A stretch of 53,615 bases of DNA from Eubacteriaceae bacterium (lineage in GTDB: Bacteria; Bacillota; Clostridia; Eubacteriales; Eubacteriaceae). The translations under genes and the position numbers were made by a program. Of the stretch, positions 15,956-32,136 are shown in pieces. Positions within the stretch are counted from its first letter, which is position 1, and every line of letters begins with the position of its first letter. The DNA lies in NCBI GenBank assembly GCA_030156895.1, contig JASGLP010000015.1, positions 1 to 53,615 of the forward strand. Reading direction: 5' to 3'. A model generated the notes under the pieces. That model saw nothing but the letters and a program-made list of their open reading frames with translations, made no database searches and was not told the DNA's origin.

Positions 15956-15966
15956 GTTTTTCTCCT

Positions 15967-16737
15967 TTAGTATTGGTTTAGTATATTCTTAAGTTTTAAC
16001 ATGGCCTGGGAATGGATCTGCGAGACCCGTGACTCAGTGACACCTAAAACTTCTGCAATCTCTTTTAATTTTAAATTTTCATAATAGTATAATGAAATAA
16101 CCTGACGCTCTTTTTCCTTTAAAGTATCGATGGATCTGGCCAACTGTGTTTTTAGCTCGTCAAACAATACTTTTGACTCCGGCCGCTCATCCCGGGTTTC
16201 CGTATCGACTAAAGGTGAAACTTCCATCATCTTTTCATTAGCCGCTTCCTCATATGAAAGGATGACTGAATTATGCCGCTGCTGAAAGATTTTCTGCAGA
16301 TTATCTTCAGTGATATTCATTGTCTTAGCCAGTTCTGAATTGGTGGGCTCACGGCCAAATTCCGCATAAAGCTCACCATATTTTTCTTCCAGTAACTTTG
16401 AAAGACTACGCTGACTTCTGGGAACCCAATCCTGCTTTCGCATAAAATCGATAATAGCTCCCCTTACTTTTAGGGTCGCAAAGGTCTCGAATTTATTGCC
16501 CTTATCTGGATCAAATTTTTCAACTGCGTCAATCAGCGCAATCATTCCCTGATTCACCATATCATCCATCTGGCTAAAATTATTATAGGAGCCCCTAAAA
16601 CGTAAGACTATTCTTTTAACCAGATCAGTGTACAGTAGAACCAGTTCATTTCGAATTTCAATGACCGGGTCTTCCCGATAACGACGCCAAAGAGTAAGAT
16701 GCTCCAGTTCCTGATTGTTCTCTTCTGCAAGATTCAT
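15967..16737 (-). CDS. fliA: RNA polymerase sigma factor for flagellar operon (sigma-28, FliA/SigD)
   Basis: Encodes 256 residues. Region 2 (about 50-125) contains FDPDKGNKFETFATLKVRGA and DFMRKQDWVPRS; region 3 follows; region 4 (about 200-250) contains LKEIAEVLGVTESRVSQIHS. It directs RNA polymerase to TAAA-N15-GCCGATAA promoters, of which three good examples lie at the left of this window (flagellin x2, flgM). It is held by FlgM. Because it is inside the riboswitch-led fliK operon, late genes would follow that operon's activity. Confidence 0.97.
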   Translation of the reverse strand: MNLAEENNQELEHLTLWRRYREDPVIEIRNELVLLYTDLVKRIVLRFRGSYNNFSQMDDMVNQGMIALIDAVEKFDPDKGNKFETFATLKVRGAIIDFMRKQDWVPRSQRSLSKLLEEKYGELYAEFGREPTNSELAKTMNITEDNLQKIFQQRHNSVILSYEEAANEKMMEVSPLVDTETRDERPESKVLFDELKTQLARSIDTLKEKERQVISLYYYENLKLKEIAEVLGVTESRVSQIHSQAMLKLKNILNQY

Positions 16738-16761
16738 TGAATTCTCCTTTGCCGGGAATCA

Positions 16762-18822
16762 CTAGCTTTCCAATTTCACCATACCAATTACCTGGATTTG
16801 GATATTTGTCTCAATTTCATTAAATGAAAGAACTGTGAGATCGCCCAGGAATTGTTCAATCAGCCGTTTAAAATAAATTCTGACAATCGGCGACGTTAAA
16901 ATAATCGACTGATCAATGAGTTCCTTGAGTTTATCCCGCTGCTCGGTAACCTTTTCCACAATGGTCTGGACTACCGATGGGTCAATGGCCAGGTAAGTGC
17001 CATGTTCATTTTTCTTGGCGGAATTAAGTATAATGTTCTCGATTTCCTGATCCAGGGCGATGACCTTGATGCTGTTGCCGTCAGTATATTTTCTGGTAAT
17101 GGTACGTTTAAGTTTTTGTCTGACATACTCCGTCAACATATCCGTGTCTTTGATGCTGATACCATGATCGCCGATGCTTTCCAGGATACTTTCCATATCT
17201 CTGATTGGAACCCCTTCATTGAGCAGGTTGATCAGAATTTTCTGGAAATCAGCGATGGAAACAATATTGGGAATAACATCAGCAACAATGGCCGGATTGG
17301 ATTTGGAAACATTTTCCAGCAGGGAATTGATATCCTGTCGGCTAAGCAGCTCGTGCATATGTTTTTTGATCACTTCTGATAGATGGGTAACGATGACCGA
17401 GAGAGCATCAATGACAGTATAACCATATACCTCTGCCATCTCTTTATCTTTTTCCGTGACCCATTTCCCCTTGATGCCATAGGCCGGTTCGATGGTTTCG
17501 ATCCCGTCAATGGGTTCACAATCACCACCGGGATCAAGAGCCAGGTAGTAGCCCACCAGTACATCACCCTTAGCAACTTCTTCGCCTTTTATTTTGATAA
17601 TATATTGATTGGGGTTAATTAAGCCATTATCACGCAATCGCACCGAAGGGATTACTACCCCCATATCCAGTGCATATTGTTTTCTGAATATGACGATACG
17701 ATCAATGAAAGAACTTGAGCTATTTTCGTCAACTAGCGGTAACAGCGAATAACCAAATTCCATTTCAATGGGCTCGACGCCAATAATATCATAGACATTA
17801 TCGATGTTGCGATAAAAATCAATCTCACTGCCTTCCTGCTCGACAAACTGAGTCAGCTCATCAGCTTCTTCAACGGCAACCTGTTGTTGTTGATTCCTAA
17901 TTAAAATAATTCCAAATACAACCAGCATGATCGCAATAATCAGGATCTGCAAAGCTGGTGCTCCGGGGATCAAAGAAAGACAAGCGATGGCAATTCCGGA
18001 AATGATTAAAACCACCGGCTGGGATAAAAGCTGTCGGGTGACTTCTATATTTAAATTATCTTCAGATGCGGCACGGGTAACAATCATCGAAGTACCCACA
18101 GAAATCATCAGCGCCGGTACCTGACTAACCAGACCATCCCCTACTGTCGCAATGGAATAAACCGATAAAACTTCACTAAAAGCCATACCACCCTGAATTA
18201 TACCAATGATGGTTCCAGCCACAAGGTTGATGACTGCAATAATAATTGAAGCAATGGCATCACCTTTAACAAATTTGGTTGCCCCATCCATGGCACCGTA
18301 GAATTCAGCTTCACGTTGAACATTTTTACGTCTTTCCCGAGCTTCAACCTCCGTAATGGTACCAGAACTTAAATCAGCATCAATGGCCATTTGCTTACCA
18401 GGCATAGCATCCAGAGTGAAACGAGCGGAAACTTCTGAAATTCTTTCCGCACCTTTGGTAATAACCACAAACTGGACGATGATGATAATCAGAAAGACAA
18501 TAAAGCCGACTATGGCATTACCACCCAAGACAAAGTTACCAAATGTGGCAATCACCGCACCGGCCGATCCGCCATTAGACAGAATCAGACGGGTTGAAGA
18601 AATATTTAAGGCTAATCGTAATAAAGTTGTGATTAGAAGTGCCGATGGAAAAATCTGAAAATCCAAAGGCCCATTTATAAACATGGTCGTCAGCAAGATA
18701 ATCAGTGATAGCGCCATATTCAAAATAAACATAAAATCAAGAAAAAATGGCGGTAAGGGTATAATGATAAGCGCTAATGTGACAACGACAAAGATGACAA
18801 CCAGATTCTGAACAATTCTCAT
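16762..18822 (-). CDS. flhA: Flagellar type III export gate protein FlhA
   Basis: Encodes 686 residues. The N-terminal half has about eight membrane helices with the FHIPEP-family region (DAMPGKQMAIDADL near 150, then RRKNVQREAEFYGAMDGATK). The C-terminal cytoplasmic domain (about 340-686) docks chaperone-substrate complexes. Its ATG overlaps the flhB stop by 4 bp. Unusually, the next gene is the sigma-28 gene; the flhF and flhG genes that commonly follow flhA are missing here. Confidence 0.98.
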   Translation of the reverse strand: MRIVQNLVVIFVVVTLALIIIPLPPFFLDFMFILNMALSLIILLTTMFINGPLDFQIFPSALLITTLLRLALNISSTRLILSNGGSAGAVIATFGNFVLGGNAIVGFIVFLIIIIVQFVVITKGAERISEVSARFTLDAMPGKQMAIDADLSSGTITEVEARERRKNVQREAEFYGAMDGATKFVKGDAIASIIIAVINLVAGTIIGIIQGGMAFSEVLSVYSIATVGDGLVSQVPALMISVGTSMIVTRAASEDNLNIEVTRQLLSQPVVLIISGIAIACLSLIPGAPALQILIIAIMLVVFGIILIRNQQQQVAVEEADELTQFVEQEGSEIDFYRNIDNVYDIIGVEPIEMEFGYSLLPLVDENSSSSFIDRIVIFRKQYALDMGVVIPSVRLRDNGLINPNQYIIKIKGEEVAKGDVLVGYYLALDPGGDCEPIDGIETIEPAYGIKGKWVTEKDKEMAEVYGYTVIDALSVIVTHLSEVIKKHMHELLSRQDINSLLENVSKSNPAIVADVIPNIVSIADFQKILINLLNEGVPIRDMESILESIGDHGISIKDTDMLTEYVRQKLKRTITRKYTDGNSIKVIALDQEIENIILNSAKKNEHGTYLAIDPSVVQTIVEKVTEQRDKLKELIDQSIILTSPIVRIYFKRLIEQFLGDLTVLSFNEIETNIQIQVIGMVKLES

Positions 18823-19889
18823 GAAATATCGAATTCCTTCTTTTTAGTATTATAAACCCAAGCCATCAGCTCAGCCACGATCTGGTACATTTCCGGAGGG
18901 ATATAGTCATTTACTTCAATGGTCTTGTAAAGCATTTGAGCTAAGGGCTTATCCTCCTTTATCAGTACATCATTGGCTTCACCTAATTCAATAATTTTTA
19001 GCGCCAGATAATCCTGTCCTTTTGCCAAAACCAGGGGGGCGGGATCCTTTTGGGCATCATATCGAATAGCCACCGCAAAATGGGTCGGGTTTCTGACAAT
19101 CACATCGGCCTGGGGCACCTGAGTCATCATTCTGGCCTGGCTCATCTGCCGCTGCTTCTGGCGAATCTTTCCCTTGATTTGGGGATCCCCTTCAATTTGT
19201 TTGTATTCGTCTTTTACTTCCTGCTTGGTCATTTTAAGCTTTTTCTCATAGTCATAGCGTTGATAAAAAAAGTCAGCAGCAGCAATGACGGCAAAAATCA
19301 TAGTGACCGTGTAAACCATGCTCATGACATTTTGTCTGAGAAAACGAATATTTTCATCCAAAGCAGTATTGAGCATATCAGGCGCAATTGTCATTATATC
19401 GATCACAGTCGAATAGATGATGACAATGATCAGGGTCACTTTTAAAATTGATTTAATCAATTCAACAATTGATCGCAGTGAGAATATTCGCTTGATTCCT
19501 GAGATTGGGTTTAGTTTATTAAATTTAAATCTAATCGCTTCCCCAGATATCAGAAATTTAGTCTGTACGCCACTCATTATAAAAGCCACCAGCATTAAAA
19601 TAGTGACAATCGGCAATGCCGTAATAAAAATGGCTATCACCAGCTCTTTCATGATGATAGAAAAAGAGGCAATTGTCAGAGTCTGCATGGTTTCCACCAT
19701 TTCTAGCTGGCCAATGTAAAACTCTTTGAGTTGAATGTAAATAAAAGTTACCAGCTGATTAACCAGGACAAAGCCAATCAGCAGAACAACGACACTGACA
19801 ACGTCCCGACTCTGATAGGTATTTCCTTTTTTGCGCTCGTCCCGGCGCTTCTTGGGGGTCGCCTTTTCGGTTTTTTCTGATTGTGCCAT
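18819..19889 (-). CDS. flhB: Flagellar export substrate-specificity switch protein FlhB
   Basis: Encodes 356 residues, with a Lys/Arg-rich cytoplasmic N-terminus (EKATPKKRRDERKKGN), four membrane helices and a C-terminal cytoplasmic domain. The NPTH autocleavage site is intact (VIVRNPTHFAVAIRY, near residue 268). FlhB switches export from rod/hook to filament proteins together with FliK, encoded at the head of this operon. It lies between fliR (15 bp) and flhA (4-bp overlap). Confidence 0.98.
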   Translation of the reverse strand: MAQSEKTEKATPKKRRDERKKGNTYQSRDVVSVVVLLIGFVLVNQLVTFIYIQLKEFYIGQLEMVETMQTLTIASFSIIMKELVIAIFITALPIVTILMLVAFIMSGVQTKFLISGEAIRFKFNKLNPISGIKRIFSLRSIVELIKSILKVTLIIVIIYSTVIDIMTIAPDMLNTALDENIRFLRQNVMSMVYTVTMIFAVIAAADFFYQRYDYEKKLKMTKQEVKDEYKQIEGDPQIKGKIRQKQRQMSQARMMTQVPQADVIVRNPTHFAVAIRYDAQKDPAPLVLAKGQDYLALKIIELGEANDVLIKEDKPLAQMLYKTIEVNDYIPPEMYQIVAELMAWVYNTKKKEFDIS

Positions 19890-19904
19890 ATCATTCTCCG
19901 CTAA

Positions 19905-20672
19905 TTATGAAAACAGGGTCAGCGCCTGGCTTATTTTTTCCATCATCAGGCTGTTCATTTTAAGCATGTAATCTCCGATAGAGGGAATGATCGTAATTAT
20001 TACAATCACACCCACAATGATTTTCACCTGTAGATTAACAACGAAAACGTTAATGTTCGGAACCAGCCGCATGAGTATTCCCACCGCGAACTCAACAATC
20101 AGTTCGGTAATTATTAGAGGGATGGCCAACTGAATCGCGTATAAAAAAATTGAGGTCATCAATTCGATAATAAACACCCCAACTTGACCAGTGATTACAC
20201 TTGTTCCAACTGGAGCGATCTGGAAAGACTGAACCATCACATTAATTAAGGCCAAATGGGTATTGGATACAAAAAACAGCATTGCATACATAGCCGTTAA
20301 CAGATTTCCTGTAACAGTCGCATTGATATTAGTTGAAGGATCATACATGGAAGCCATACTCAAACCAATTTGCATATCTATCATTTGACCGGTAATCTGG
20401 AAAACACTTAAAAACATTTGGGTAATAAAACCTATTACAAAGCCGATGGCGAAGCCCTGGAGCAGCATCATTATATATTCGACAGTGGTTAAATCCATTA
20501 CGTTGATATCGCCCATATAGTTGATGGCAAATAGGGAAATGGCCATTGCAAAACCAAATTGAATAACATAGGGAACGCTTTTCCGACCCAGAATCGGATT
20601 AAAAATGATCATACCGGTTATTCTTGACCCGGCCAATAAAAATAGAAAAATCTGATTTAAGCTAATATCCAT
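19905..20672 (-). CDS. fliR: Flagellar export gate protein FliR
   Basis: Encodes 255 residues, almost entirely hydrophobic, with six or so predicted membrane helices. Motifs AGSRITGMI and GFAIGFVIGFITQMFLSVFQ fit the FliR family. It forms the export gate with FliP and FliQ inside the basal body. It lies 6 bp after fliQ and 15 bp before flhB. Confidence 0.96.
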   Translation of the reverse strand: MDISLNQIFLFLLAGSRITGMIIFNPILGRKSVPYVIQFGFAMAISLFAINYMGDINVMDLTTVEYIMMLLQGFAIGFVIGFITQMFLSVFQITGQMIDMQIGLSMASMYDPSTNINATVTGNLLTAMYAMLFFVSNTHLALINVMVQSFQIAPVGTSVITGQVGVFIIELMTSIFLYAIQLAIPLIITELIVEFAVGILMRLVPNINVFVVNLQVKIIVGVIVIITIIPSIGDYMLKMNSLMMEKISQALTLFS

Positions 20673-20678
20673 AACTTC

Positions 20679-20945
20679 TTAAATCTGGGTTGCAATCAAT
20701 TCAAAAATTCTCAGCGTAAAATCGCTCATCTGCTGCATCATCCATCCTCCGAATAAAATCAGCATCAGTCCCATGACAATCAACTTCGGAACAAAGGTCA
20801 TTGTCTGTTCATTAATCGATGTCGCCGCCTGAATGATTGAAATAACCAGACCAACCGCCATCCCCACTAATAAGATCGGTGCTGCAACCTTTAATCCGGT
20901 CATCACCGCATCACGAAATACTTCCATTAATTGACCAGTTCCCAT
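20679..20945 (-). CDS. fliQ: Flagellar export gate protein FliQ
   Basis: Encodes 88 residues with two hydrophobic hairpin helices. The family stretch GLVISIIQAATSINEQTMTF is intact. Export-gate subunit; normal length. Sits between fliP (14 bp) and fliR (6 bp). Confidence 0.96.
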   Translation of the reverse strand: MGTGQLMEVFRDAVMTGLKVAAPILLVGMAVGLVISIIQAATSINEQTMTFVPKLIVMGLMLILFGGWMMQQMSDFTLRIFELIATQI

Positions 20946-20959
20946 CGTCTCTCCAATCT

Positions 20960-21727
20960 CTAATTATATGTCATGACCAGTGTTCGAATTAACAGCCCCC
21001 AACCATCGACCACCACAAAGAGCATCACCTTAAAGGGCAATGAAATCATAACTGGTGGCAGCATCATCATCCCCATTGACATGAGGACACTTGCAACAAT
21101 CATATCAATGATCATAAAGGGGATATAGATGAGAAATCCAATCAGAAATGCGCGTTTAAGTTCACTGATAATAAAAGCTGGAATGACAACCGTCATGGGT
21201 AAATCCATACCGCTTAAAGTTTGAGCATTTTCATCGCTTGACAGGCTGAGGAATAGATTTACATCCTCCGATGTCGTCTGTTTCAACATCCACTCTTTCA
21301 TCGGATCTGAAGCCAATGTGAGGAAGGTCTGCGTATCGACGGTTCCGGCACTATAGGGTTGCAAAGCGACCTCATTTATCTGACTGAAAACCGGTGACAT
21401 GATAAAAAGTGTCGTTGCCAGTGCTAAGCCGACTAGAATCTGATTAGGCGGCGTCTGTTGCAGACCAAGTGCGTTTCTCAAAAAAGACAGAACAATGATG
21501 ATCCGTCCAAAGCAGGTCATCATTAAAAGAATCGATGGAATAACAGCGATCAGGGTCATCAGAATAACAATTCTGATAGAATCAGACCCTTCACCAGCTA
21601 ACATATCTGAAATTGTAGTCGCATGCACCTGTCCGCTTGACAAGATGAAAATTAAGCATATTACTGGCAGTATTTTAATCAGATGGTTTTTGATTGTTAG
21701 ACTCGACTCTGCTGTTCGTTTATCCAT
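20960..21727 (-). CDS. fliP: Flagellar export gate protein FliP
   Basis: Encodes 255 residues, with an N-terminal signal-like hydrophobic segment (about 17-36) and four further membrane helices. Family signatures: FGRIIIVLSFLRNALGLQQT, PPNQILVGLALATTLFIM and PFKVMLFVVVDGWGLL. Core export-gate subunit. It begins 2 bp after the fliO stop. Confidence 0.97.
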   Translation of the reverse strand: MDKRTAESSLTIKNHLIKILPVICLIFILSSGQVHATTISDMLAGEGSDSIRIVILMTLIAVIPSILLMMTCFGRIIIVLSFLRNALGLQQTPPNQILVGLALATTLFIMSPVFSQINEVALQPYSAGTVDTQTFLTLASDPMKEWMLKQTTSEDVNLFLSLSSDENAQTLSGMDLPMTVVIPAFIISELKRAFLIGFLIYIPFMIIDMIVASVLMSMGMMMLPPVMISLPFKVMLFVVVDGWGLLIRTLVMTYN

Positions 21728-21729
21728 AC

Positions 21730-22071
21730 TTATTGATCCTTATTTTTAATTGATTTTAAAATACTGGCAAAATTTTCTTTGCTTAGCTCTTTTCTTTGTG
21801 GAATTTCTAACGCTGTTTCCAATTCTTTAATCAGTGAAATATTCTGTTCACTAATCCCCAACAGTAATTGCTGCCCTTCAATATCAACAATCACCAGTGA
21901 ACTGGATTTGCTGACAATCACGCGTTCAATTACTTTTATATGATTGCCGCCTGTGATATTTCCAGCTGCCCTTGAAACGCGTCTGGCGTACCAATGACTA
22001 CCATAATAAGTTAAAATCAGGACACCAATGGTTCCAAACAGTGCCAGTACAACCGAAAACACGTCATTCAC
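21730..22071 (-). CDS. fliO: Flagellar biosynthetic protein FliO
   Basis: Encodes 113 residues: one N-terminal membrane helix (about 5-24), then a small beta-rich cytoplasmic domain (HIKVIERVIVSKSSSLVIVD). FliO helps assemble the FliP ring. Conservation is weak in this family, but the position between cheY and fliP is diagnostic. Also called FliZ in Bacillus. Confidence 0.9.
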   Translation of the reverse strand: MNDVFSVVLALFGTIGVLILTYYGSHWYARRVSRAAGNITGGNHIKVIERVIVSKSSSLVIVDIEGQQLLLGISEQNISLIKELETALEIPQRKELSKENFASILKSIKNKDQ

Positions 22072-22080
22072 TTAGCTTTC

Positions 22081-22446
22081 CTATGCTTTCCCAAGGGCAC
22101 TATTGACGGTCTGTAACAGACGGTCAGCTTTAAAAGGCTTTACAATAAAATCGAGGGCTCCATTTTTAATCGCTTCAACGACCATGCCCTCCTGCCCCAT
22201 TGCTGAACACATCACAACTTTTGCCTGGGGATTGTATCCTTTAATTGCCTGTAGTGCCTGAATGCCATCCATGATCGGCATGGTAATATCCAACAATACC
22301 AGATCAGGGGAATTCTCTTTATAGGCAGCCAAAGCCAATTCGCCATTTTCTGCCTCTATAAAATCTGAATACCCTCCTTTTTTCAAGCTGTCTTTGATCA
22401 TCATTCGCATAAATGCTGCATCATCAACGATTAAAATCTTATCCAT
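22081..22446 (-). CDS. cheY: Chemotaxis response regulator CheY
   Basis: A single receiver domain of 121 residues. Acidic pair Asp8-Asp9, phospho-acceptor Asp53 (LLDITMPIMDG), the switch Thr/Ser (CSAMG) and Lys in DFIVKPF are all present. CheY-P binds the switch protein FliM/FliY to change rotation. It sits next to fliY, whose product removes the phosphate. Confidence 0.97.
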   Translation of the reverse strand: MDKILIVDDAAFMRMMIKDSLKKGGYSDFIEAENGELALAAYKENSPDLVLLDITMPIMDGIQALQAIKGYNPQAKVVMCSAMGQEGMVVEAIKNGALDFIVKPFKADRLLQTVNSALGKA

Positions 22447-22472
22447 GTTTGTCTTCCTTTCCGAAATTCCTA

Positions 22473-23693
22473 TTAATTTTTGTTGTTTAATTCTTCTTTA
22501 GTTTTTATAATCTCAGTGATTTTCACACTGTAGTTACCATCAACAACGACAACATCTCCTCTGGCAATCAGACGACCATTTGCAATAACATCAACCTGGT
22601 CACCAGCCTGACGATCTAGCTCAACGATATTTCCCAAAGTTAATTCAGCAATATCCTTGATTTTTTTCTGGGTTCTGCCCAGCTCCACACTGATCTGAAT
22701 CGGTACTGACATAATCAGATCGAGGTTATCCGCCGAGACCATATTAGCCTGGTCAGGTGGCGCATCAAATGAACGATAATTATAATTACTGACTTCTACC
22801 GGTTGCTGATGGGACACCACATTTTCTGAAGGATGTGGTGGTTTTTGCCCATAAGGCTGCTGATACTGTCCCGGTGGCATTTGCCCATAGGGCTGCTGAT
22901 ACTGTCCCGGCGGTGCCTGACCATAAGGCTGCTGATAATTTGGATCATATCCTTGAGGCGGCTGCTGTTGGGGGTAACCCTGGGGTGGTGGCTGTTGTGA
23001 CACAGCTTGCTGCACCTCTGCTTGTGTTTGTGCATGAGCTTGCGGTTGAGCAGGTATTTCGACAGGTGGCGCTTCTTCCTCATCAACGCCACTTGCACCC
23101 ATGGACATGGCCACAATTTCTTTGGCTAAATTTGGTTCCATGGCACTGATAAATTCACTGTCAACTAAATCTTCGATAATCAGATGAAATTTGATACTGA
23201 CAAGACTTTCACCTTTTAAAGCAAATAGTTCACGGACACTCGTTTTGCTGGTGGTATCCAGCATGGTCGGTGGTGAAATATTGACAACTTTGCCCAAAAA
23301 TGAAGCCAACGCCCCTGCTGCCGATCCCATCATCTGGTTCATGATTTCGCCGATAGCACTTTTACTGATTTCATCGAATTCCATCTCATCGCCCGGCTCC
23401 ATGCCGAACAACTGAGACAGTATTTTTTTCATGTCGTCTTCCTTTAAAAGCAAGACATTGGAACCATCAATTCCCTCAACATAGTTAATTAATACCCCAA
23501 TTACGGGTTCTAAATAAGTAAATTCAAATTCTTCTACATCAACGGTTTCAATCCTCGGGGTGGTAATGTTCACCTTTGTACCGAGTATGGTCGACATGGC
23601 CGTGGCCGCTGAGCCCATACTGATGTTCATTACCTCTCCGATTACATCAACTTCCATATCCGTTAATTTCTCGGCACTAGCTGTTGTTGTCAT
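22473..23693 (-). CDS. fliY: Flagellar motor switch phosphatase FliY (CheC-like plus FliN domain)
   Basis: Encodes 406 residues. The N-terminal CheC-type phosphatase domain (about 10-200) has two E-x-x-N sites (GEVMNISMGS and GEIMNQMMGS). A long Pro/Gln/Tyr-rich linker (about 210-300) follows. The C-terminal FliN domain (about 325-400; VPIQISVELGRTQKKI) assembles into the C-ring. It dephosphorylates CheY-P at the motor. The ATG overlaps the fliM stop by 4 bp. The linker contains near-perfect 12-residue repeats. Confidence 0.97.
   Translation of the reverse strand: MTTTASAEKLTDMEVDVIGEVMNISMGSAATAMSTILGTKVNITTPRIETVDVEEFEFTYLEPVIGVLINYVEGIDGSNVLLLKEDDMKKILSQLFGMEPGDEMEFDEISKSAIGEIMNQMMGSAAGALASFLGKVVNISPPTMLDTTSKTSVRELFALKGESLVSIKFHLIIEDLVDSEFISAMEPNLAKEIVAMSMGASGVDEEEAPPVEIPAQPQAHAQTQAEVQQAVSQQPPPQGYPQQQPPQGYDPNYQQPYGQAPPGQYQQPYGQMPPGQYQQPYGQKPPHPSENVVSHQQPVEVSNYNYRSFDAPPDQANMVSADNLDLIMSVPIQISVELGRTQKKIKDIAELTLGNIVELDRQAGDQVDVIANGRLIARGDVVVVDGNYSVKITEIIKTKEELNNKN
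22846..22935 (-). repeat. In-frame 36-bp repeats in the fliY linker
   Basis: Two full 36-bp units (22846-22881, 22882-22917) and a half unit (22918-22935) encode the 12-residue repeat QQPYGQxPPGQY. The copies differ at only a few bases, suggesting recent expansion by slippage. Confidence 0.9.
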
Positions 23694-24712
23694 TCGATTG
23701 GCTCACTTCCTCTCTTTAAAATCTCTCTGATGGCTATCGCCTTTTTCTTTTTACTATGTCCCATATCGCCTTTAAACCAGACTTCATCATTGACAACCAA
23801 ATCTACCATTGAATCCACCGGCTTATTAAGGGTGATAATATCTCCCACTTCAAGCTCCAGAATATCCTGGGACATAACCCCCACTTCACCCAAAACCCCG
23901 CGGATTTCGAGAGTGGTTTTTCTGATTTCATCAATAATATTTTTACGTCGTTTTTCTTCCGCGACCTGGTCTCCGCGTTTTTGACTCCTTTTCTTTAAAG
24001 CTTCTCTTTTCTTGAACATCATATCCAGTGTTCCAGCTGGAATACAAATGTTGATTTTCCCTATTGTTTCATTAACCTTAATGTTTAAGACAATAATAAC
24101 CACATTATCATCCGTACCAATCCCTTGAAGAATTCGTGAGTTGGTTTCTATTTTTATCAGTCTGGGAGAAATCTCCAGATAGTCAAACCAGGCATTTTTC
24201 ATTAGATTTATCATGCCCTTTAAAAAATGTTCCAATACCCCTACTTCTATTTCGGTAAACTCCCGGTCTTCTTCAAGGGGAGCTCCTGTACCGCCAAGCA
24301 GGCGATCAAAGCTGGCAAAGCCAATTTCTTTGGATACATCCATTATTACCATGTCCTCTTCCGAATCACTGTCCTCAACCTGGAAATCAATCAGTCCCAT
24401 TAAAACTGAGTCGGGTAAAGCATTATTAAATTCATAATACTGCTGTTCTTCCACTTCAATAATTTCGACTAGACTGTAAATTTGCAGGACTCCGGTCATA
24501 TGCGAAGATAAAAGACGAGCGTAGGTTTCATAGATACTAAACAGATGTTTTAACTGTTCACGGGTGAAAAGCTTGGGTCTTCGAAAATCATAATCTTTAA
24601 TTTTTTTTCCGGATGCCGAGTCATTCTCAACAGTCCCATCCACATCACCACCACCGCCCACCAGGCTGCTTAATAGACTATCAATTTGACTTTGTGATAA
24701 GATTTCTGCCAT
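23690..24712 (-). CDS. fliM: Flagellar motor switch protein FliM
   Basis: Encodes 340 residues. The N-terminal CheY-P-binding peptide is EILSQSQIDSLLSSL. The central CheC-like domain contains LLGGTGAPLEEDREFTEIE. The C-terminal FliN-like domain (about 255-335; LGEVGVMSQDILELEVGDII) completes it. C-ring component controlling rotation direction. It follows motB by 12 bp; fliL, which usually lies between motB and fliM, is missing. Confidence 0.97.
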   Translation of the reverse strand: MAEILSQSQIDSLLSSLVGGGGDVDGTVENDSASGKKIKDYDFRRPKLFTREQLKHLFSIYETYARLLSSHMTGVLQIYSLVEIIEVEEQQYYEFNNALPDSVLMGLIDFQVEDSDSEEDMVIMDVSKEIGFASFDRLLGGTGAPLEEDREFTEIEVGVLEHFLKGMINLMKNAWFDYLEISPRLIKIETNSRILQGIGTDDNVVIIVLNIKVNETIGKINICIPAGTLDMMFKKREALKKRSQKRGDQVAEEKRRKNIIDEIRKTTLEIRGVLGEVGVMSQDILELEVGDIITLNKPVDSMVDLVVNDEVWFKGDMGHSKKKKAIAIREILKRGSEPIE

Positions 24713-24724
24713 AATTTATTCCTG

Positions 24725-25489
24725 TTACTGTCCTTCCTGTGTCGTTTCGGTGGTTGCATCTGAACTGGATGAATTAGCAATGGTCTGGAAATCCTGAATC
24801 AGATCCTGATCTTGAGAAATAATAATTTCAACCCGTCGATTTTGAGCCCGTCCTTCTTCGGTATCATTGCTGGCAATGGGATGATACTGCCCATAACCAA
24901 CTGCCAAAAGTTTTGATGGATCGCTCACGTAGCCGGCCTCCAAAAATTTGAGCACCGTATTGGCACGATCCGTTGACAGGTCGCGATCACTGATTGGCGA
25001 ATCGGCAACAGCTGTATGCCCATCAACCCGAATGGCTTTGATGCGATCCTGCACATCACGTATTGCCGTTCCAATATCCATCATTAACTGCCGACCTTGG
25101 GCTGTCAGGACTGCTGAATCCGGGTTGAAAAACATCGATGACATAAACTGAATCCCAACAACATTTTCCCCCTGTGAGACCTGAACCTGATCCTGAAGAC
25201 CTCTGCTTTCAACATACTGCGTTAAATACTGGTACAACTCCTCTAGATCCAATACTTCCTGATCTGTTGCGGTGTCACTAACGGCTGTATCCGTGGCTGA
25301 TCCTGTCGGATCCTGAATGGCTGTCGGGTTAAACATCTCCACCAGTAATTCGTATTTTGCCGCATCAATGGTCGACATCGAAAAAAGAAGCACAAAGAAT
25401 ACAAGAATCAGGGTAATCATATCCGCATAGGTATTCAACCATGCATCTTTATTAGGGCCCTTACTGCCGCCCTTTTTTCTTCTTCCCAT
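24725..25489 (-). CDS. motB: Flagellar stator protein MotB, sodium-type (MotS/PomB-like) membrane segment
   Basis: Encodes 254 residues. A short basic N-terminus is followed by one membrane helix with the ion-binding Asp23 (TYADMITLILVFFVLLFS). Then comes a plug/linker and a C-terminal OmpA-like peptidoglycan-binding domain (about 120-235; VDGHTAVADSP, DRANTVLKFLE, NRRVEIII). It anchors the stator to the cell wall. The membrane helix resembles the sodium-driven MotS type more than B. subtilis MotB. That the motor is sodium-driven is inference, though acetogens of this group do have sodium bioenergetics. motA lies 41 bp upstream. Confidence 0.95.
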   Translation of the reverse strand: MGRRKKGGSKGPNKDAWLNTYADMITLILVFFVLLFSMSTIDAAKYELLVEMFNPTAIQDPTGSATDTAVSDTATDQEVLDLEELYQYLTQYVESRGLQDQVQVSQGENVVGIQFMSSMFFNPDSAVLTAQGRQLMMDIGTAIRDVQDRIKAIRVDGHTAVADSPISDRDLSTDRANTVLKFLEAGYVSDPSKLLAVGYGQYHPIASNDTEEGRAQNRRVEIIISQDQDLIQDFQTIANSSSSDATTETTQEGQ

Positions 25490-25530
25490 TTTTTATACCC
25501 CATATTTTTTAATATAAAATGAATACCGCA

Positions 25531-26358
25531 TTACTTCTTTTTCTTTTTCCTGGTTTTTTTGCCCTCGCCATCTTCACTTTTTTTCTGTTTGGAAGATTCA
25601 ACAAAATTCATCAGTTTTTCTTCGATATATTTGGGGTTCTCCCCTTCTTTAATCGAAACAACCCCTTCAATGATTAGTTCTTTGATTAAAATATCACGTT
25701 CCTGAGCAATTGCAACTTTGTTGGAAATAGGACTAAAGACAACATTGGCAAGCACTGAACCGTAAAAGGTTGTAATCAAAGCAACCGACATATCCTGTCC
25801 CAACTTTTCTGCGCCACCATCAAGGTTCATACTTTTTAGCATATTGATCAAACCAATCAGCGTACCAATCATCCCGAAAGCCGGGCCTAAGGCCGCTCCA
25901 AAATCATAGAGCTTCCTTTCCTCCTCGTTTCGCATCTCAATTAATTCCAGTTTCTGATCAAACCAGAGTCTAAGCTTATCCGGTTCAATAGCATCTACAA
26001 TTCGGAGTACAGATTCTCTTAGAAACTCATCCTCGATTTCTGCTGACTTGGCTTCCAGAGCCAGCAAGCCTTTTCGACGGGCTTCTTTAGAGAGTTCAAC
26101 GAGAATCTCAACATACTGCTGTGGATCAGTTTTATCCTTCATAAAAACCATTTTAAGATGCTTTGGGATATTGGTAAAGGCTTTAAAAGGAAAAGATGCC
26201 AAAAGTACCATAAAAGTACCACCAATCGTAATAAAGACACTTTGGGCATTCCAAAAATTTGCCAGGGCGCCAATATCAAATCCTTCCGATCCGACCGTTA
26301 TCCCAAAAAAGAGCGCCACAACAACCAACACATAACCAATAATTACTGTAATTTCCAT
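25531..26358 (-). CDS. motA: Flagellar stator protein MotA
   Basis: Encodes 275 residues with four membrane helices (about 5-25, 33-55, 150-175, 185-210) and a cytoplasmic loop that contacts FliG. Family motifs: FGMIGTLIGLINMLK and GSVLANVVFSPISNK. The C-terminus is a long Lys/Glu-rich tail (about 255-275) not needed in most MotA proteins. Upstream partner of motB. Confidence 0.96.
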   Translation of the reverse strand: MEITVIIGYVLVVVALFFGITVGSEGFDIGALANFWNAQSVFITIGGTFMVLLASFPFKAFTNIPKHLKMVFMKDKTDPQQYVEILVELSKEARRKGLLALEAKSAEIEDEFLRESVLRIVDAIEPDKLRLWFDQKLELIEMRNEEERKLYDFGAALGPAFGMIGTLIGLINMLKSMNLDGGAEKLGQDMSVALITTFYGSVLANVVFSPISNKVAIAQERDILIKELIIEGVVSIKEGENPKYIEEKLMNFVESSKQKKSEDGEGKKTRKKKKK

Positions 26359-26398
26359 TCTTACTTCTCTCTCCTGTGAGAATTTGTCATACTACAAA

Positions 26399-26593
26399 TT
26401 ATCGGCTAAAGATATTTCGCTTATAGGCCAGGATTTTTGATACAACCTGTGATGAACTCTCGACAACAACATAAGTCCGCCCATTATTTAACCGAATTGT
26501 AGTATCTGGTTTTTCTTCAATTGTTTCAATTAGTTCACAATTAAGTATAAATTTTTCGCTTTTTCGTTTATCTAATCTTGTTAATTCTATCAT
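26399..26593 (-). CDS. flbD: FlbD/SwrD family flagellar protein
   Basis: Encodes 64 residues: MIELTRLDKRKSEKFILNCE, then TIRLNNGRTYVVVESSSQVV. It matches the small FlbD family called SwrD in B. subtilis, where it raises flagellar power. Position between flgE and motA is conserved and fits a role in stator function. No membrane segment. Confidence 0.9.
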   Translation of the reverse strand: MIELTRLDKRKSEKFILNCELIETIEEKPDTTIRLNNGRTYVVVESSSQVVSKILAYKRNIFSR

Positions 26594-26622
26594 TTTTCAT
26601 CCCTCATTAAAAGTACAAAATG

Positions 26623-26651
26623 GTTTCGCCCGAAAATTTTTCGGGCGAAAC
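26623..26651 (-). terminator. Strong stem-loop between flgE and flbD
   Basis: A 14-bp perfect inverted repeat (26623-26636 with 26638-26651) has almost no loop. On the minus strand it is followed by CATTTTG rather than a clean T-run. It lies 20 bp after the flgE stop inside the operon. It is more likely a partial terminator or an mRNA-protecting hairpin that raises hook-protein mRNA than a full stop. Confidence 0.6.
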
Positions 26652-26670
26652 AAATTAATCAAAAATAATA

Positions 26671-27642
26671 TTATCGTTTCAGGTTTACAAGTTCTTCTAA
26701 AATAGAGTCCGAAACTGTTACAATTCGGCTGTTTGCCTGGAATCCACGCTGGGCGGTAATCATTTCAGTGAACTCCCGCGATAAATCGACGTTGGACATT
26801 TCGAGGCAGCCAGAGATGATTTCACCTGCAGCGTTTTCGCCCGCAGAAGTAATTTGAACATCTCCTGAATTGCTATCTGCCTGAAAATAACTTGTTCCTA
26901 CTTCGCTCATTCCATCCGGATTGCCAAACGTTCCAATCGCAATTTTCCCTAGAACATAAGGACTTCCACCGATTATTCCTGTAATAGCGCCATCTGATCC
27001 TATTGAGATCCCTGTAACCTCATCTAAAACTTCTGGATCAATACTTATCCCTCCAATTTCATCAGTAGCAGCAGATGCACCAGGTGCTAAGTATGTTGTA
27101 GTAAGGTTGGCCATATAATCTTCTAAATAAGTGGGATCTAAAGCAGAAATATCACTTGCTTCTGTATAGGTGATTGGATCTGTAGTTGTATCAATCGCCG
27201 ATATCGTCCCTAAAACCATACTTCCATTGCCATCCACCAAATTGCCAGCTGAATCAAATTGAAGCGCCCCGACCCGGGTATAGGCAATTTCCGGATCATC
27301 GGCCTGTTTTGTGTTAACAATCAGGAAACCGTCGCCATCTATGAAAATGTCCATTGAACGGCCAGTATCGGCACCTGAAGAATTGGTCATAATCTTATCA
27401 ATCGATGCGACTTTAACCCCATATCCCAACTGACTAGAGTTTGTTCCGCCGCTAGCAATTGCAGTGCCATCATTCTCACCTGCAGTTGAAGACCTAACAT
27501 TCTGATACAAAACATCCGAAAAAACCACGCGGCTGGATTTAAATCCATAAGTATTGACATTGGCAATATTGTTACCAATAACGTTTAATTTCGACTGATG
27601 GACACCCATCCCCGAAATTGCTGAGTATAAAGATCTTAACAT
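26671..27642 (-). CDS. flgE: Flagellar hook protein FlgE
   Basis: Encodes 323 residues. N-terminal rod/hook motif: MLRSLYSAISGMGVHQSKLN, then VIGNNIANVNTYGFKSSRVV. C-terminal helix: NVDLSREFTEMITAQRGFQA, then NSRIVTVSDSILEELVNL. The middle carries D1/D2 domains and is shorter than in enteric FlgE (about 400). Polymerises into the hook with the help of the cap FlgD. The two genes upstream are flgD and a TIGR02530 gene. Confidence 0.96.
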   Translation of the reverse strand: MLRSLYSAISGMGVHQSKLNVIGNNIANVNTYGFKSSRVVFSDVLYQNVRSSTAGENDGTAIASGGTNSSQLGYGVKVASIDKIMTNSSGADTGRSMDIFIDGDGFLIVNTKQADDPEIAYTRVGALQFDSAGNLVDGNGSMVLGTISAIDTTTDPITYTEASDISALDPTYLEDYMANLTTTYLAPGASAATDEIGGISIDPEVLDEVTGISIGSDGAITGIIGGSPYVLGKIAIGTFGNPDGMSEVGTSYFQADSNSGDVQITSAGENAAGEIISGCLEMSNVDLSREFTEMITAQRGFQANSRIVTVSDSILEELVNLKR

Positions 27643-27712
27643 TCATTTTCCTTTCTGTGCCATTTTAGCTTATCTGTCATTCAAAGCTTGTAACTCCCTC
27701 AAAGAGGTCCAG

Positions 27713-28117
27713 TTATATAAAGATGGCACCGTCAATATCATTGACAATTTTTTCTTTCATTTCATTTTTATCCATGACGGTAATGATCCGCCGGTTTTGC
27801 GCACTGACAATAAAAGCTGAGTCATCCATCATAATCAAAGCGTTGTTAATGCCTTTTTCCTGAGCCTGATCACAGGCCTGGGAAATTTTTTCCAGGTCGG
27901 ACTCGCTGACTTCAATGCTGCGCTGCTCACTTCGTTGTGCCGCATGTTTACTGAAAGTGACAGTCTTTTCAAACTCCTTCTGAAAAAGATCTTTAAAGTC
28001 ACTATTTGTAGCAACACTGCTATTCTTTATCTGATTTTGCTGATTTGAACTGAGGCGCTCTGTTTGTTGGATGATACTACTGCTGACACGATAATAGTTA
28101 TTTATATCATTAGCCAT
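27713..28117 (-). CDS. TIGR02530 family flagellar operon protein
   Basis: About 134 residues. The start at 28117 is chosen because GAGGT lies 5 nt upstream; the earlier in-frame Met at 28129 has no ribosome site. The C-terminal half (SDLEKISQACDQAQEKGINN, then DSAFIVSAQNRRIITVMDKN) fits the TIGR02530 family found between flgD and flgE in Firmicutes. The function is not known; a role in hook assembly or export is inferred from position. Cytoplasmic, no membrane helix. Confidence 0.85.
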   Translation of the reverse strand: MANDINNYYRVSSSIIQQTERLSSNQQNQIKNSSVATNSDFKDLFQKEFEKTVTFSKHAAQRSEQRSIEVSESDLEKISQACDQAQEKGINNALIMMDDSAFIVSAQNRRIITVMDKNEMKEKIVNDIDGAIFI

Positions 28118-28143
28118 TGGGTACCTCATTTCTATTAGTTGCT

Positions 28144-28608
28144 CTATTCGCCGCTGTTATCTCCAGAACTGCTATCTGCCGCATCGACGCTCATAACACT
28201 GCTTAAACTGTATGAGTTTCCATCGACAACCACCATTGTTTCGCCATTATAGAAATTGACACTATCAACAATACCCTGTACTGTTGTAATATTGCCATCA
28301 TCATCGGCTTCTGCAATAATGACATCTTTTCCGATCAGGCTAACCCCATAATTTGTCATCGATAATTCTGTCAGATCAGCCATGGCTGCTGTCATACTGT
28401 TGATGGATTCGATCATGGTGTAAGTTGCCATCTGATTCACAAATTCATTGGTGTCAGCGGTATTGTTCATATCCTGATTCTGAAGCTGGGCCACCATCAT
28501 CTGCAAAAAATCATCCATTTCAAATCCAGTCGTGAACGTACTACTTGTACTTGTGGATGTTGTGGTTGCCATGGTGGTCAGGTAATCATTTAAACTGCTA
28601 ATTGCCAT
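28144..28608 (-). CDS. flgD: Flagellar hook capping protein FlgD
   Basis: Encodes 154 residues. The conserved N-terminal FlgD core is FLQMMVAQLQNQDMNNTADT, then EFVNQMATYTMIESINSM. The C-terminal part is a short beta domain (VSLIGKDVIIAEADDDGNIT). It is shorter than enteric FlgD (about 230) because the C-terminal FLG4/TUDOR part is reduced, as in many Firmicutes. Caps the growing hook. Confidence 0.94.
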   Translation of the reverse strand: MAISSLNDYLTTMATTTSTSTSSTFTTGFEMDDFLQMMVAQLQNQDMNNTADTNEFVNQMATYTMIESINSMTAAMADLTELSMTNYGVSLIGKDVIIAEADDDGNITTVQGIVDSVNFYNGETMVVVDGNSYSLSSVMSVDAADSSSGDNSGE

Positions 28609-28618
28609 TTGTTTCCTC

Positions 28619-29953
28619 CTATACTAAATAATTAAGTCGACTAAAACGACTGCTTTGGACACTGATATTGGCCAGGTCTGTCAGAGATTCATCCAGACTC
28701 TCGCCACTGGTCAGGCCTATTCTAGCCATACGGTTAAATTTCCCGCCAATTAAATTACTCTGGGCTTCTTGCTGCTGACCCTGTTTGAAATCCATATTTG
28801 TCATATTGGACTGAGCCTGTTGGCCGGAATCCGCTGTTTCTTCAACAGAGCGATTAATTGTAACGGTTTCGACACTTACTTTCTGGAGTGCCAAGCTCCG
28901 CACCAGCTGGTCAATCTGTTTTGATAAGAGCTCGTGGGTTTCCTGACTCGCTGCTAAAATGTTAATGGTCAGCTTACCATTGGAAAATGCCATTTCTACG
29001 TCAATTTCGCCAAGGCTTTCCGGGTTTAAAGTCACCTTAAATGTTTTATCGGTATTGAGCTCAAAGTTTTCAACAATTGCATCCTGAACCTGACTTAAAA
29101 GCTGCGCCGGTTCCGCTTTTGTTGCAGGTGCGGTACTTTTCACTCCCAACAAACTCTGAACATCCACCTGCTTGCCATCAGTTTCAACGCTAGGCGCCTC
29201 CACTGTTTCTTCCTGCAGGTCAATCCCATTAAGAGAAATCGTTTTGCCTGCTTCAGCACTTTTCTCCTGACTTTCAACAGATATTTGGTCTGTTCTACCC
29301 AGGGGCTGATCTGCTCTAGCGTCATCAGTGATCACTTCTGTAGACTCTTTAACTTGCCTTAAAGCAGAATCCAGTTTTGTCTTTTGCTTGTTTAAAAGAT
29401 CAACATCTTGTCCCACTAAAGTGTTTTCGAGCTGACTTGTTAAATCATCTGAAAACGCTTCTTCTGCCAGAACTGGCATTTCTGTCACTTTTCCATCCTG
29501 ATTTGCCATAATAGAAGAAAGTATTGTTGTAGCATCCGGATTTTGAACTGCACCAAGTGACATTTCTCTTGTCATTTCCTGACCCAACTCTTGAGCTACT
29601 GTCTGATCCGCATTTTCCGGAGCGACGAATCCCCCCATTAAAAGTGCTGTCATCAGCTCAGTTGACTGATCCTGACTGGCCTCATTTTGATCCGGATTGA
29701 AACGCCCGGGCATTTCTACACTTGCTTCATCCACAAGCAATTCGGCTGCTGGCACATCTGCACTTTCCTTGACTTCATCACCGAAAAGCTTTTCTTCTGC
29801 CTGATTGCTGTCCTGACTACTATTGTCAAGCTTTCGGGCATCCTTTAAAAATGTCATAAAGTTTGACCCATCCGCTTGCTGTGTCTTTTGAGCGCTTGAA
29901 TACTGATTGGTAAAATCACTGGTCTTTGACGCTTGATTTACCTGTACTGCCAT
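28619..29953 (-). CDS. fliK: Flagellar hook-length control protein FliK
   Basis: Encodes 444 residues. The first ~290 residues are low-complexity, Gln/Ser/Glu-rich, serving as the molecular ruler. The C-terminal Flg_hook domain (about 300-385) has FKVTLNPESLGEIDVEMAFS and SKQIDQLVRSLALQKV. It measures hook length and triggers the FlhB switch. First gene of the operon: AAGGAGG lies 8 nt before the ATG, and a ~365-nt leader with a c-di-GMP riboswitch precedes it. In B. subtilis the genes flgB-fliJ would lie upstream; they are absent here. Confidence 0.93.
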   Translation of the reverse strand: MAVQVNQASKTSDFTNQYSSAQKTQQADGSNFMTFLKDARKLDNSSQDSNQAEEKLFGDEVKESADVPAAELLVDEASVEMPGRFNPDQNEASQDQSTELMTALLMGGFVAPENADQTVAQELGQEMTREMSLGAVQNPDATTILSSIMANQDGKVTEMPVLAEEAFSDDLTSQLENTLVGQDVDLLNKQKTKLDSALRQVKESTEVITDDARADQPLGRTDQISVESQEKSAEAGKTISLNGIDLQEETVEAPSVETDGKQVDVQSLLGVKSTAPATKAEPAQLLSQVQDAIVENFELNTDKTFKVTLNPESLGEIDVEMAFSNGKLTINILAASQETHELLSKQIDQLVRSLALQKVSVETVTINRSVEETADSGQQAQSNMTNMDFKQGQQQEAQSNLIGGKFNRMARIGLTSGESLDESLTDLANISVQSSRFSRLNYLV

Positions 29954-30108
29954 TCTTTCACCTCCTTAAAAAAATTTGTTCATCCTGTCAAATTGTTGCG
30001 ACAGATATGATTTATCTGAACGGCTAATGCCAGTTCATTCGATTTGACAATTTTATATTTTATCCTATTATGTTACTTACCCATTATTCAATTGATTTTT
30101 CAATCAGT

Positions 30109-30133
30109 AAAGGCTTTATTTTTATAAGCCTTT
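30109..30133 (+). terminator. Hairpin with T-run on plus strand in the fliK leader
   Basis: AAAGGCTT (30109-30116) pairs with AAGCCTTT (30126-30133), followed on the plus strand by T-rich sequence. No plus-strand gene ends here. It may block antisense transcription or act only as a leader stem-loop on the minus-strand transcript. Confidence 0.4.
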
Positions 30134-30145
30134 TTCTTTACCATG

Positions 30146-30169
30146 AAAAAAGGCAACCTTTCAGTTGCC
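30146..30169 (-). terminator. Intrinsic terminator of the riboswitch expression platform
   Basis: On the minus strand GGCAAC (30164-30169) pairs with GTTGCC (30152-30157) and is followed by six Ts (30146-30151). It lies about 190 bp before the fliK start and about 50 bp after the aptamer. The 5' arm, GCAACTG on the RNA, is complementary over 7 nt to CAGTTGC in the aptamer's 3' side. The two structures may therefore be alternatives. Confidence 0.85.
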
Positions 30170-30218
30170 AAAAATTTTAAGTGCATAATAAAGAGACACT
30201 CCGTTTTCACGTCATTTT

Positions 30219-30303
30219 TAAGCAACTGGCTGTCATATAATATCAATTACTTAGACTCTTTAGTTTTGCGTCCCTACTTTTCAGTAAGTTTGCCCAAATA
30301 TTA
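30219..30303 (-). ncRNA. Cyclic di-GMP-I (GEMM) riboswitch
   Basis: On the minus strand the sequence shows the GEMM-I core in order: GGGCAAAC; a TACT-GAAA-AGTA tetraloop hairpin; GGGACGCAAA; an ACTA..GTCTAAG arm; and a 3' part ATATGACAGCCAGTTGC. These are the invariant pieces of the Vc2/Cd1-type aptamer that binds c-di-GMP. It begins about 15 nt after a sigma-A promoter and is followed by a terminator, so it sits in the 5' leader of the fliK motility operon. Its identity is recognised from family consensus; ligand binding is not tested. The predicted logic is termination when c-di-GMP is high. Confidence 0.93.
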
Positions 30304-30316
30304 ATTGTCTTCAATA

Positions 30317-30345
30317 ATACTACTTGATTCCTATTCGTCTGTCAA
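30317..30345 (-). promoter_or_regulatory. Sigma-A promoter of the fliK motility operon
   Basis: Minus-strand TTGACA (30340-30345), 17-bp spacer, TAGTAT (30317-30322). The start of transcription would be near 30309, just ahead of the GEMM aptamer. Confidence 0.85.
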
Positions 30346-30396
30346 TAAAAAGATGCTAAAATTGGGTTAACTTAAGGTAAATATCAATTTTAAAAT

Positions 30397-32136
30397 TTAC
30401 ATATTTTCACTGGCAAGATACTCTTCTGAGCTAATCAGACCCTGATGTAACTTCAAGCTCAGGATTCCCTGGGCGATATTTGAAGCATGATCGCCAACCC
30501 GTTCGATATTGGTTAAAAGATCCATAAATATAATCCCGGCATAAGGATTGCAAATCCCTTCATTTAGTCGACTAATATGATCATCTTTTAATTTTTCCGT
30601 CAATTCATCAATTTCATCTTCTTCATCCAGAATTTTGTAACACAATTCCAGCTCATCGCCATCCAGTAGCGAAACCATATCCTTGAGAATATCTGTTGTG
30701 ACATTGATCAGGGTTAGCAGTTCCTGATTGGCAATTTCACTAAACTCAATTTTTTGCGCCAACTGCATCTCCGACAATTCGCTGATGTTCATGGCGTGAT
30801 CGCCAATCCTTTCCAGATCATGACTGCCTTTCATGAAAAATGCCAGCTGGTCGTTCTCAGCCTCCGACATATTTTCGTTTGACAGTTTTACCGTAAAATC
30901 AATAATCCCCTGTTGAAATTCATCAATACGGTTTTCGCGATTGGCAATCTCCTCCAGCATCTTGGGATCTTTGGTCATAATCACCTGGCAGGATTCAAAG
31001 AAGTTTTTAGAAACCATATTTCCCAGCCGAGTCAGCTCTTTGCCCACCTGACCCAAGGCAATGGAAGGGTTGTTCAAAAGTCGGTCATCCAAATACAAAC
31101 CTTTTTCCGCTTCCTGTTCCGGCATAAAGTGATCCAGAGCTTTAACAAAATAATTGATAATTGGAAACAGCACAATGGTATTGACAATATTAAACATGGT
31201 ATGCGCCATTGCAATCTCTCTGGCTACATTAGGAACCACATCACCACTAGAATCCACCATGGTTCCAGACATGCTGACAATCAGTTCATAAATCGGATTT
31301 GTCGTGGTTACTGCATCCATTACCCCTAATAAAACCATTACCCAGATGGCACCAAAGACATTGACGAAAAGATGGATAAAAGCCGCCTTTTTAGCCGCTA
31401 CCGAAGTTCCGATACTGGAGATCAGCGCTGTTACGCAGGTTCCAATATTGGTCCCAATCAAGATTGGAATACAGACATCAATGGCTTGTGCCGCTCCCAT
31501 ACTCGAAAAGACCCCTGAAATCGCCAAAGCCTGAAGCAAACCTAAGGAAGCGCTGCTGCTTTGGATGATGGCCGTGATACCAGCCCCGATCAGTAAACCA
31601 AGCAAAGGATTCGTTCCATAAGTCGTTAACAGATAAATGAATTCTTCACTTTCCCGAAGGGGTTTCATGGCCGTTGACATGGTCGAGATACCAAAAAACA
31701 AAATCCCAAAGCCCAGCATGACGCTGCCCATATCGCGGGTTTTTTTGCTTCGACCAAACATGGTTATTAAGGCGCCCACACCAATAAATACTGGCGCCAC
31801 CTCTGAAACATTAAAAGCAATCATCTGAGCCGTAATGGTCGTCCCGATATTGGCTCCCAGGATCACGCCCGCTGCTTGTGTCAGCGTCATCAGCGAAGCA
31901 TTCACAAATCCAACAACCATTACCGTCGTCGTGCTGGAACTTTGTACAATCATTGTAACCAGTGTCCCAACCAAAATCGCCTTAATCCGATTACTGGTCA
32001 GAATTTCCAGCAGTTGCTTCATTTTTTTGCCGGCAACGGTTTTTAAACCGTCGCTCATCATATTCATACCAAAGATGAAAAGTCCCAATCCTCCAAATAG
32101 GCCTATCAGCATTTCTAACGTCATCAATTTTTCCAA
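30397..32136 (-). CDS. Na/Pi cotransporter family protein with PhoU-like domain
   Basis: Encodes 579 residues. The membrane part (about 1-340) has two inverted Na/Pi-cotransporter repeats with the signature QSSS motifs (MIVQSSSTTTVMVVGFVNAS and AIIQSSSASLGLLQALAIS). The C-terminal 230 residues are helical and PhoU-like (DHAMNISELSE, NIERVGDHASNIAQGIL). NptA/YjbB family: probably sodium-dependent phosphate transport, import or export. Start ATG at 32136. Divergent from glyS; phased Pho-box-like repeats lie 140-190 bp upstream. The stop is just 52 bp before the -35 of the motility promoter, and I see no strong terminator between them. Confidence 0.93.
   Translation of the reverse strand: MEKLMTLEMLIGLFGGLGLFIFGMNMMSDGLKTVAGKKMKQLLEILTSNRIKAILVGTLVTMIVQSSSTTTVMVVGFVNASLMTLTQAAGVILGANIGTTITAQMIAFNVSEVAPVFIGVGALITMFGRSKKTRDMGSVMLGFGILFFGISTMSTAMKPLRESEEFIYLLTTYGTNPLLGLLIGAGITAIIQSSSASLGLLQALAISGVFSSMGAAQAIDVCIPILIGTNIGTCVTALISSIGTSVAAKKAAFIHLFVNVFGAIWVMVLLGVMDAVTTTNPIYELIVSMSGTMVDSSGDVVPNVAREIAMAHTMFNIVNTIVLFPIINYFVKALDHFMPEQEAEKGLYLDDRLLNNPSIALGQVGKELTRLGNMVSKNFFESCQVIMTKDPKMLEEIANRENRIDEFQQGIIDFTVKLSNENMSEAENDQLAFFMKGSHDLERIGDHAMNISELSEMQLAQKIEFSEIANQELLTLINVTTDILKDMVSLLDGDELELCYKILDEEDEIDELTEKLKDDHISRLNEGICNPYAGIIFMDLLTNIERVGDHASNIAQGILSLKLHQGLISSEEYLASENM

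Follow-up and report, generated by a model that had tools for sequence, protein, structure and literature searches.

A candidate class I c-di-GMP riboswitch with OFF-switch anatomy ahead of fliK in Acetobacterium

Ahead of the flgB operon of C. difficile stands Cd1, described as a class I c-di-GMP riboswitch that switches transcription OFF (PMC9262584, PMC5386303). In the model of PMC9262584, strand A pairs either with strand P, in the aptamer, or with strand T, in the antiterminator, and strand T pairs with strand H to form the terminator. For Eubacterium limosum, PMC5651825 reports two riboswitches of the cyclic di-GMP-I class whose start sites are intergenic. Start sites have also been mapped in A. 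bakii (PMC6239172), in a paper whose main text nowhere contains flagell, di-GMP or GEMM. No published description of an Acetobacterium fliK c-di-GMP riboswitch was found by title or start of abstract in the open-licence literature, a search that does not establish that none has been published. C. difficile already provides an example of this type of switch, and what is new here is the Acetobacterium instance.

The window (the whole 53,615-nt stretch of DNA that was analysed) comes from a 3.0 Mb genome, 85% complete, placed in the genus Acetobacterium. Ahead of fliK it carries what we read, with a probability of about 0.86, as a class I c-di-GMP riboswitch forming a transcriptional OFF switch. 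The elements are the following.

30317 to 30345, minus strand: sigma-A type promoter TTGACA-N17-TAGTAT (-35 TTGACA at 30345-30340, -10 TAGTAT at 30322-30317, N17 between), leading directly into the aptamer
30218 to 30304, minus strand: c-di-GMP-I (GEMM-I) aptamer, RF01051, with G at the presumed Vc2 G20 equivalent
30221 to 30228, minus strand: switch strand A, CAGUUGCU, on the 3' side of the aptamer
30162 to 30169, minus strand: switch strand T, GGCAACUG, in the terminator 5' arm and complementary to strand A
30146 to 30169, minus strand: intrinsic terminator GGCAACU GAAA GGUUGCC plus U6, 7 pairs, -9.3 kcal/mol

The first-pass annotation had proposed the order promoter TTGACA-N17-TAGTAT, GEMM-I aptamer and intrinsic terminator, and every element was found where it had been placed. 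A covariance-model search matched RF01051 at 71.7 bits (E 3.6e-12) over the full model (1-87, positions 30304-30218 of the minus strand), compared to a curated gathering score of 35 bits, which confirms the aptamer; it was the sole Rfam match at gathering level in the window. Both the GNRA-loop hairpin (GAAA) and the GGGACGCAAA core are present in this full-length alignment. The terminator stem runs from 30169 to 30152 and is followed by six T to 30146; it begins approximately 50 nt past the aptamer and uses none of the aptamer strands. The proposed complementarity between CAGUUGC (30228-30222) and GCAACUG (30168-30162) was recovered with both segments in place, and the complement amounts to 8 pairs, CAGUUGCU with GGCAACUG. 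Directly past the terminator, at 30109-30133, lies an 8-nt inverted repeat, AAAGGCTT/AAGCCTTT; read on the plus strand it has a T-rich run behind it and could terminate transcription coming from the opposite direction. An invertible switch of the C. difficile type was considered and rejected, as only two 8-nt inverted-repeat pairs occur in 29930-30150 compared to the 21-bp repeats of C. difficile.

In the proposed mechanism, the aptamer would be the first part to be made once RNA polymerase starts at the promoter (30345-30317). If it binds c-di-GMP, the aptamer would hold its 3' strand CAGUUGC, and the terminator arm GGCAAC would then pair with GUUGCC and stop transcription near 30146. With no ligand, CAGUUGCU would pair with GGCAACUG and block the terminator, and polymerase would read through to fliK and on to the genes behind it for the hook, stator, switch, export gate and sigma-28; motility would be expected to fall away at high c-di-GMP.

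When the window RNA was folded without the 3' arm of the terminator, the antiterminator was the predicted minimum free energy (MFE) structure, at -31.0 compared to -18.8 with the aptamer enforced, so that the antiterminator is favoured before the 3' arm exists. For the full-length RNA the MFE of -36.3 was that of the terminator fold, with the antiterminator at -33.9 and the aptamer plus terminator at -26.2, before ligand energy. Since the terminator fold is slightly more stable than the antiterminator at full length, read-through at low ligand must be kinetic, and the folding energies imply a switch that has to work while the RNA is being transcribed, in line with the Cd1 model. Before the 3' arm is made, the antiterminator is predicted to lie 12 kcal below the aptamer, a large difference for ligand binding to make up at equilibrium.

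Conservation of this leader was examined in 19 genomes of the genus, the window's included, and a fliK match was obtained in 17; the two outside this set, G004 and G018, are 87% and 81% complete, respectively. Promoter, aptamer and terminator were present ahead of fliK in all 17. RF01051 was found upstream and in the same orientation in 13 of the 16 non-window fliK loci, and for the other three (G010, G013 and G017), in which the fetched fliK locus did not hold the whole aptamer, the RF01051 match lay in another locus on the same contig. The promoter pattern TTGACA-N17-TAnnnT was detected by script in 16 leaders and seen by eye in the seventeenth, that of G002, which fell outside the script's slice. 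The terminator varies strongly between species in stem, loop and length, from 7 pairs in the window to 18 in G010. Outside the genus, no GEMM-I aptamer was found ahead of fliK in 13 loci fetched by FliM similarity; none of these loci has a flgB match, and they are therefore uninformative on GEMM-I ahead of flgB there.

Within this variation the terminator 5' half can pair with the aptamer GUUGC in 17/17 leaders (GUUGU in G009, with ACAGC), while a GUUGC/GUUGU complement is expected at 0.21 per sequence on average in shuffled segments. The match is specific to its position, as overlapping 5-mers of the same strand were matched in 1, 0, 3 and 5 of the 17 leaders, and 35 other aptamer offsets gave a complement in 0 to 3 of 17. 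In seven relatives the A-T pairing takes the form GCC-bulge-GUUGC, with predicted energies of -10.6 to -13.0 kcal/mol. Taken singly, the sequences say less: the 8-pair complement of the window was reached by shuffled terminator segments in approximately 3% of trials (0.032), and ungapped A-T helices gave p<0.05 in 3 of the 17 sequences (range 0.024 to 0.603). The product of shuffle probabilities over ten representatives was 8.9e-8, a figure that overstates independence since the 17 sequences share descent. The window sequence alone thus offers modest evidence for the complement, and the position-specific comparison of 17 leaders is the stronger and, in our judgement, the persuasive argument that it is conserved.

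The same comparison bears on the idea of constant attenuation by the terminator, with an aptamer that has no effect on expression. The full-length MFE already includes the terminator, and there is a Bacillus precedent in Bc1, a class I riboswitch reported to bind its ligand while the downstream genes are unresponsive (PMC11218506). We nevertheless regard such an arrangement as improbable here, as the A-T complement is kept in 17/17 species despite the varying sequence and length of the terminator. The OFF-switch logic of the first-pass annotation is supported by the in silico folding, the complement kept in 17/17 leaders and the Cd1 parallel; a response to the ligand would follow from it.

Ten GEMM-I aptamers are present in the window's own genome, and a direction was called for four of them: the window copy, L001 and L006 as OFF, and L003 as ON. 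In L003 (G000:C74:62837-62921) GCCAGCC serves both as the aptamer 3' strand and as the terminator 5' arm, with GGUUGGC and U6 completing the terminator, an ON design. ON anatomy therefore exists in this genome, and ligand binding that prevents termination ahead of fliK has to be weighed; because the fliK terminator stands approximately 50 nt past its aptamer and is built without aptamer strands, we consider this direction very improbable and retain the OFF switch. L001 and L006 (G000:C15:11606-11850) are GEMM-I aptamers in tandem. Behind each of them stands a terminator that has GCAAC as its 5' arm, which is OFF anatomy (the L001 terminator was read by eye), and the two aptamers precede genes for an A24 prepilin peptidase and a CpaB-like protein. 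OFF control of this pilus cluster by c-di-GMP would oppose the direction reported for the type IV pili of C. difficile.

The genome yielded 53 GGDEF matches, 52 of them above the curated cut-off; it is thus amply equipped to make c-di-GMP, which is the plausible ligand. The base read for ligand selectivity is the one that we take to be equivalent to Vc2 position 20. A census of this position gave 35 G, 11 A and 1 T over 47 regular-expression matches in 36 of 39 loci; it includes loci from outside the genus, drops L018, L034 and L037 as unmatched, and counts the same aptamers twice in overlapping loci such as L001/L006. Among the aptamers of the own genome, L005 and L008 have A at this position. 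According to PMC9262584, the position is a selectivity factor and no hard filter, and a G20A class I aptamer bound to cGAMP is treated in PMC6274999. The fliK aptamers of four of the 17 genus members (G001, G003, G013 and G017) have A there, which would suit 3',3'-cGAMP in place of c-di-GMP as the ligand; the window aptamer has G, which is supportive of c-di-GMP and not proof, and for the window we give cGAMP very little credence.

The region between terminator and fliK was found to hold further elements. The pattern TTG[CT][AG]N-N18-TATAAT occurs past the terminator in 12/17 leaders, 128 to 350 nt ahead of fliK, compared to 0.04 expected in mononucleotide shuffles, and in 0/17 of the first 400 nt of fliK; the pattern was picked after the leaders had been seen. 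It has no match in the leaders of the window, G014, G006, G007 and G008, and G014 has TTGAAC-N17-TATAAT past its terminator. These sites raise the alternative that the riboswitch is real but minor, with most fliK transcription coming from a promoter past the terminator or inside the operon. C. difficile offers a parallel, two antitoxin RNAs behind class I riboswitches being also made from a stronger downstream promoter (PMC11477304). The window itself is without the pattern, its best site being TTTACT-N17-AATAAT (9 of 12), and promoter-like sites over 11000-30999 number 55 compared to 51.9 in shuffles. We judge a minor role rather unlikely, and keep the OFF switch as the preferred reading for the window; in the twelve leaders with a second promoter, c-di-GMP control may be partial.

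The fliK leaders of the relatives also share a structured element composed of two hairpins, with a third (C) in many species. Two hairpins were placed by eye in the window.

30017 to 30037, minus strand: leader hairpin A, UGAAC-U-GGC AUUA GCCGUUCA, assigned by position and fold
29981 to 30009, minus strand: leader hairpin B, CAUAUCUGUC ... GACAGGAUG, assigned by fold, between hairpin A and the fliK ribosome-binding site

The position of hairpin A matches that in the leaders of the relatives; in the window an alternative long-range stem of 8 nt, 29986-29993 with 30042-30049, would exclude hairpin B. In 11 of the 17 leaders, 91.8% of the cells pair, compared to 30-44% in slid controls. Both sides had changed in 7 of 16 pairs (shuffled mean 4.6, a value of 7 being reached by 17 of 500 shuffles), and the covariation score was reached by none of 500 shuffles. 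No Rfam match to the element was obtained at gathering score in 16 loci and the window. With a model of the element, R1, matches of E<1e-9 were confined to the region ahead of fliK and came from 13 of 19 genomes; 11 are sequences that had gone into building R1, and the other two are near-duplicates. R1 had no match in the window's genome. Seven further matches were weak (E 0.03 to 0.4), one of them on the antisense strand of a strong match. Another, near flgB in G014, was taken up as a possible copy of the element ahead of flgB and dismissed as an ordinary terminator-like hairpin. Processive antitermination of the LoaP type was likewise discarded, since LoaP targets carry a UNCG hairpin (PMC12691694) and the loops of hairpin A, read by eye, are not UNCG. 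Our guess is that the element acts on translation or mRNA stability. It is possible, though doubtful, that the fliK leader is layered as a whole, with an OFF switch, a riboswitch-independent promoter past it in most species, a regulatory RNA element by the ribosome-binding site and, in four species, an aptamer that may be tuned toward cGAMP; its control would then reach no further than the half of the flagellar genes that encodes hook, motor, export gate and sigma-28.

The genes behind the leader were assigned by Pfam.

28619 to 29953, minus strand: fliK (PF02120, E 3.8e-14), first gene of the controlled unit
11885 to 29953, minus strand: presumed transcription unit fliK to cheD, with co-transcription suggested by spacing and strand
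26623 to 26651, minus strand: 13-bp palindrome in the gap between flgE and flbD, the strongest internal hairpin and a single copy in the genome

All on the minus strand, the order is fliK, flgD, a putative flagellar protein, flgE, flbD, motA, motB, fliM and fliY, followed by cheY, fliO, fliP, fliR, flhB and flhA, and then by a sigma factor, two flg rod/hook genes, fapA, cheC and cheD. The sigma factor has regions 2-4 and is read as sigma-28. The motility operon of about 20 kb claimed previously holds as to gene content, from fliK to cheD with sigma-28 and the stator included; its length does not, being 18.1 kb from start to end. Gene order and spacing lead us to infer a single 18-kb transcript. 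Terminator-like sites over 11000-30999 number 18 compared to 15.7 in shuffles. The palindrome at 26651-26623 is a possible partial terminator or processing hairpin and could weaken expression from motA on. In L080 and L081 flgE has different hairpins behind it, with a T run further on, and none is evident in L082. In L082 (G010:C1:1238000-1252000), fliM comes directly after flgE, and queries with motA, motB and the upstream Na/Pi cotransporter were unmatched in these 14 kb of a one-contig genome.

The other flagellar genes of the genome (cheA, fliD, fliS, flgB, flgC, fliE, fliF, fliG, fliH, fliI and fliJ) lie on another contig, and in six genus genomes with both genes on one contig fliK and fliF are approximately 48 to 63 kb apart. 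No GEMM-I aptamer was found at the flgB half in the six genus flgB regions searched. Outside the genus fliJ adjoins fliK in 8 of 13 loci, and in G039, of the same order, the genes form a contiguous run; the split between fliJ and fliK is therefore most simply read as a derived state of Acetobacterium. It is because of this split that the riboswitch stands ahead of fliK instead of flgB, as the first-pass annotation had it, and it presumably governs the fliK half, about half of the flagellum genes. If so, c-di-GMP could gate one half only, from a switch that sits at the break of the split flagellar run. The 17 species compared also provide naturally occurring versions of a single expression platform, ready for use.

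Three arrangements can be set beside this locus. As in Acetobacterium, flagellar genes of G039 (L135, G039:C44:39500-52500) are headed by GEMM-I, but there the aptamers are two in tandem and stand ahead of flgB, in a run that is contiguous from flgB to motA. Bc1 of Bacillus thuringiensis shares a class I aptamer and a terminator-bearing expression platform, and differs in having two terminators and in expression reported as unresponsive to c-di-GMP (PMC11218506). The closest likeness is to Cd1. Both have the same aptamer class and a sigma-A type promoter. As in Cd1, the terminator 5' arm in the window complements the aptamer 3' strand and the terminator is built without aptamer strands. A long leader separates terminator and first gene in both, and the window switch heads what gene content indicates is a flagellar operon, presumably co-transcribed, with the flagellar sigma factor (sigma-D in C. 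difficile) inside it. The differences are that the Acetobacterium switch precedes fliK, the flagellar genes being split, and that 193 nt lie between terminator and start codon in the window compared to 338 nt past the termination site in C. difficile. The C. difficile parallel drawn at the outset is thus upheld: the fliK switch has the Cd1 OFF layout, and riboswitch control of flagella would extend from C. difficile to acetogens.
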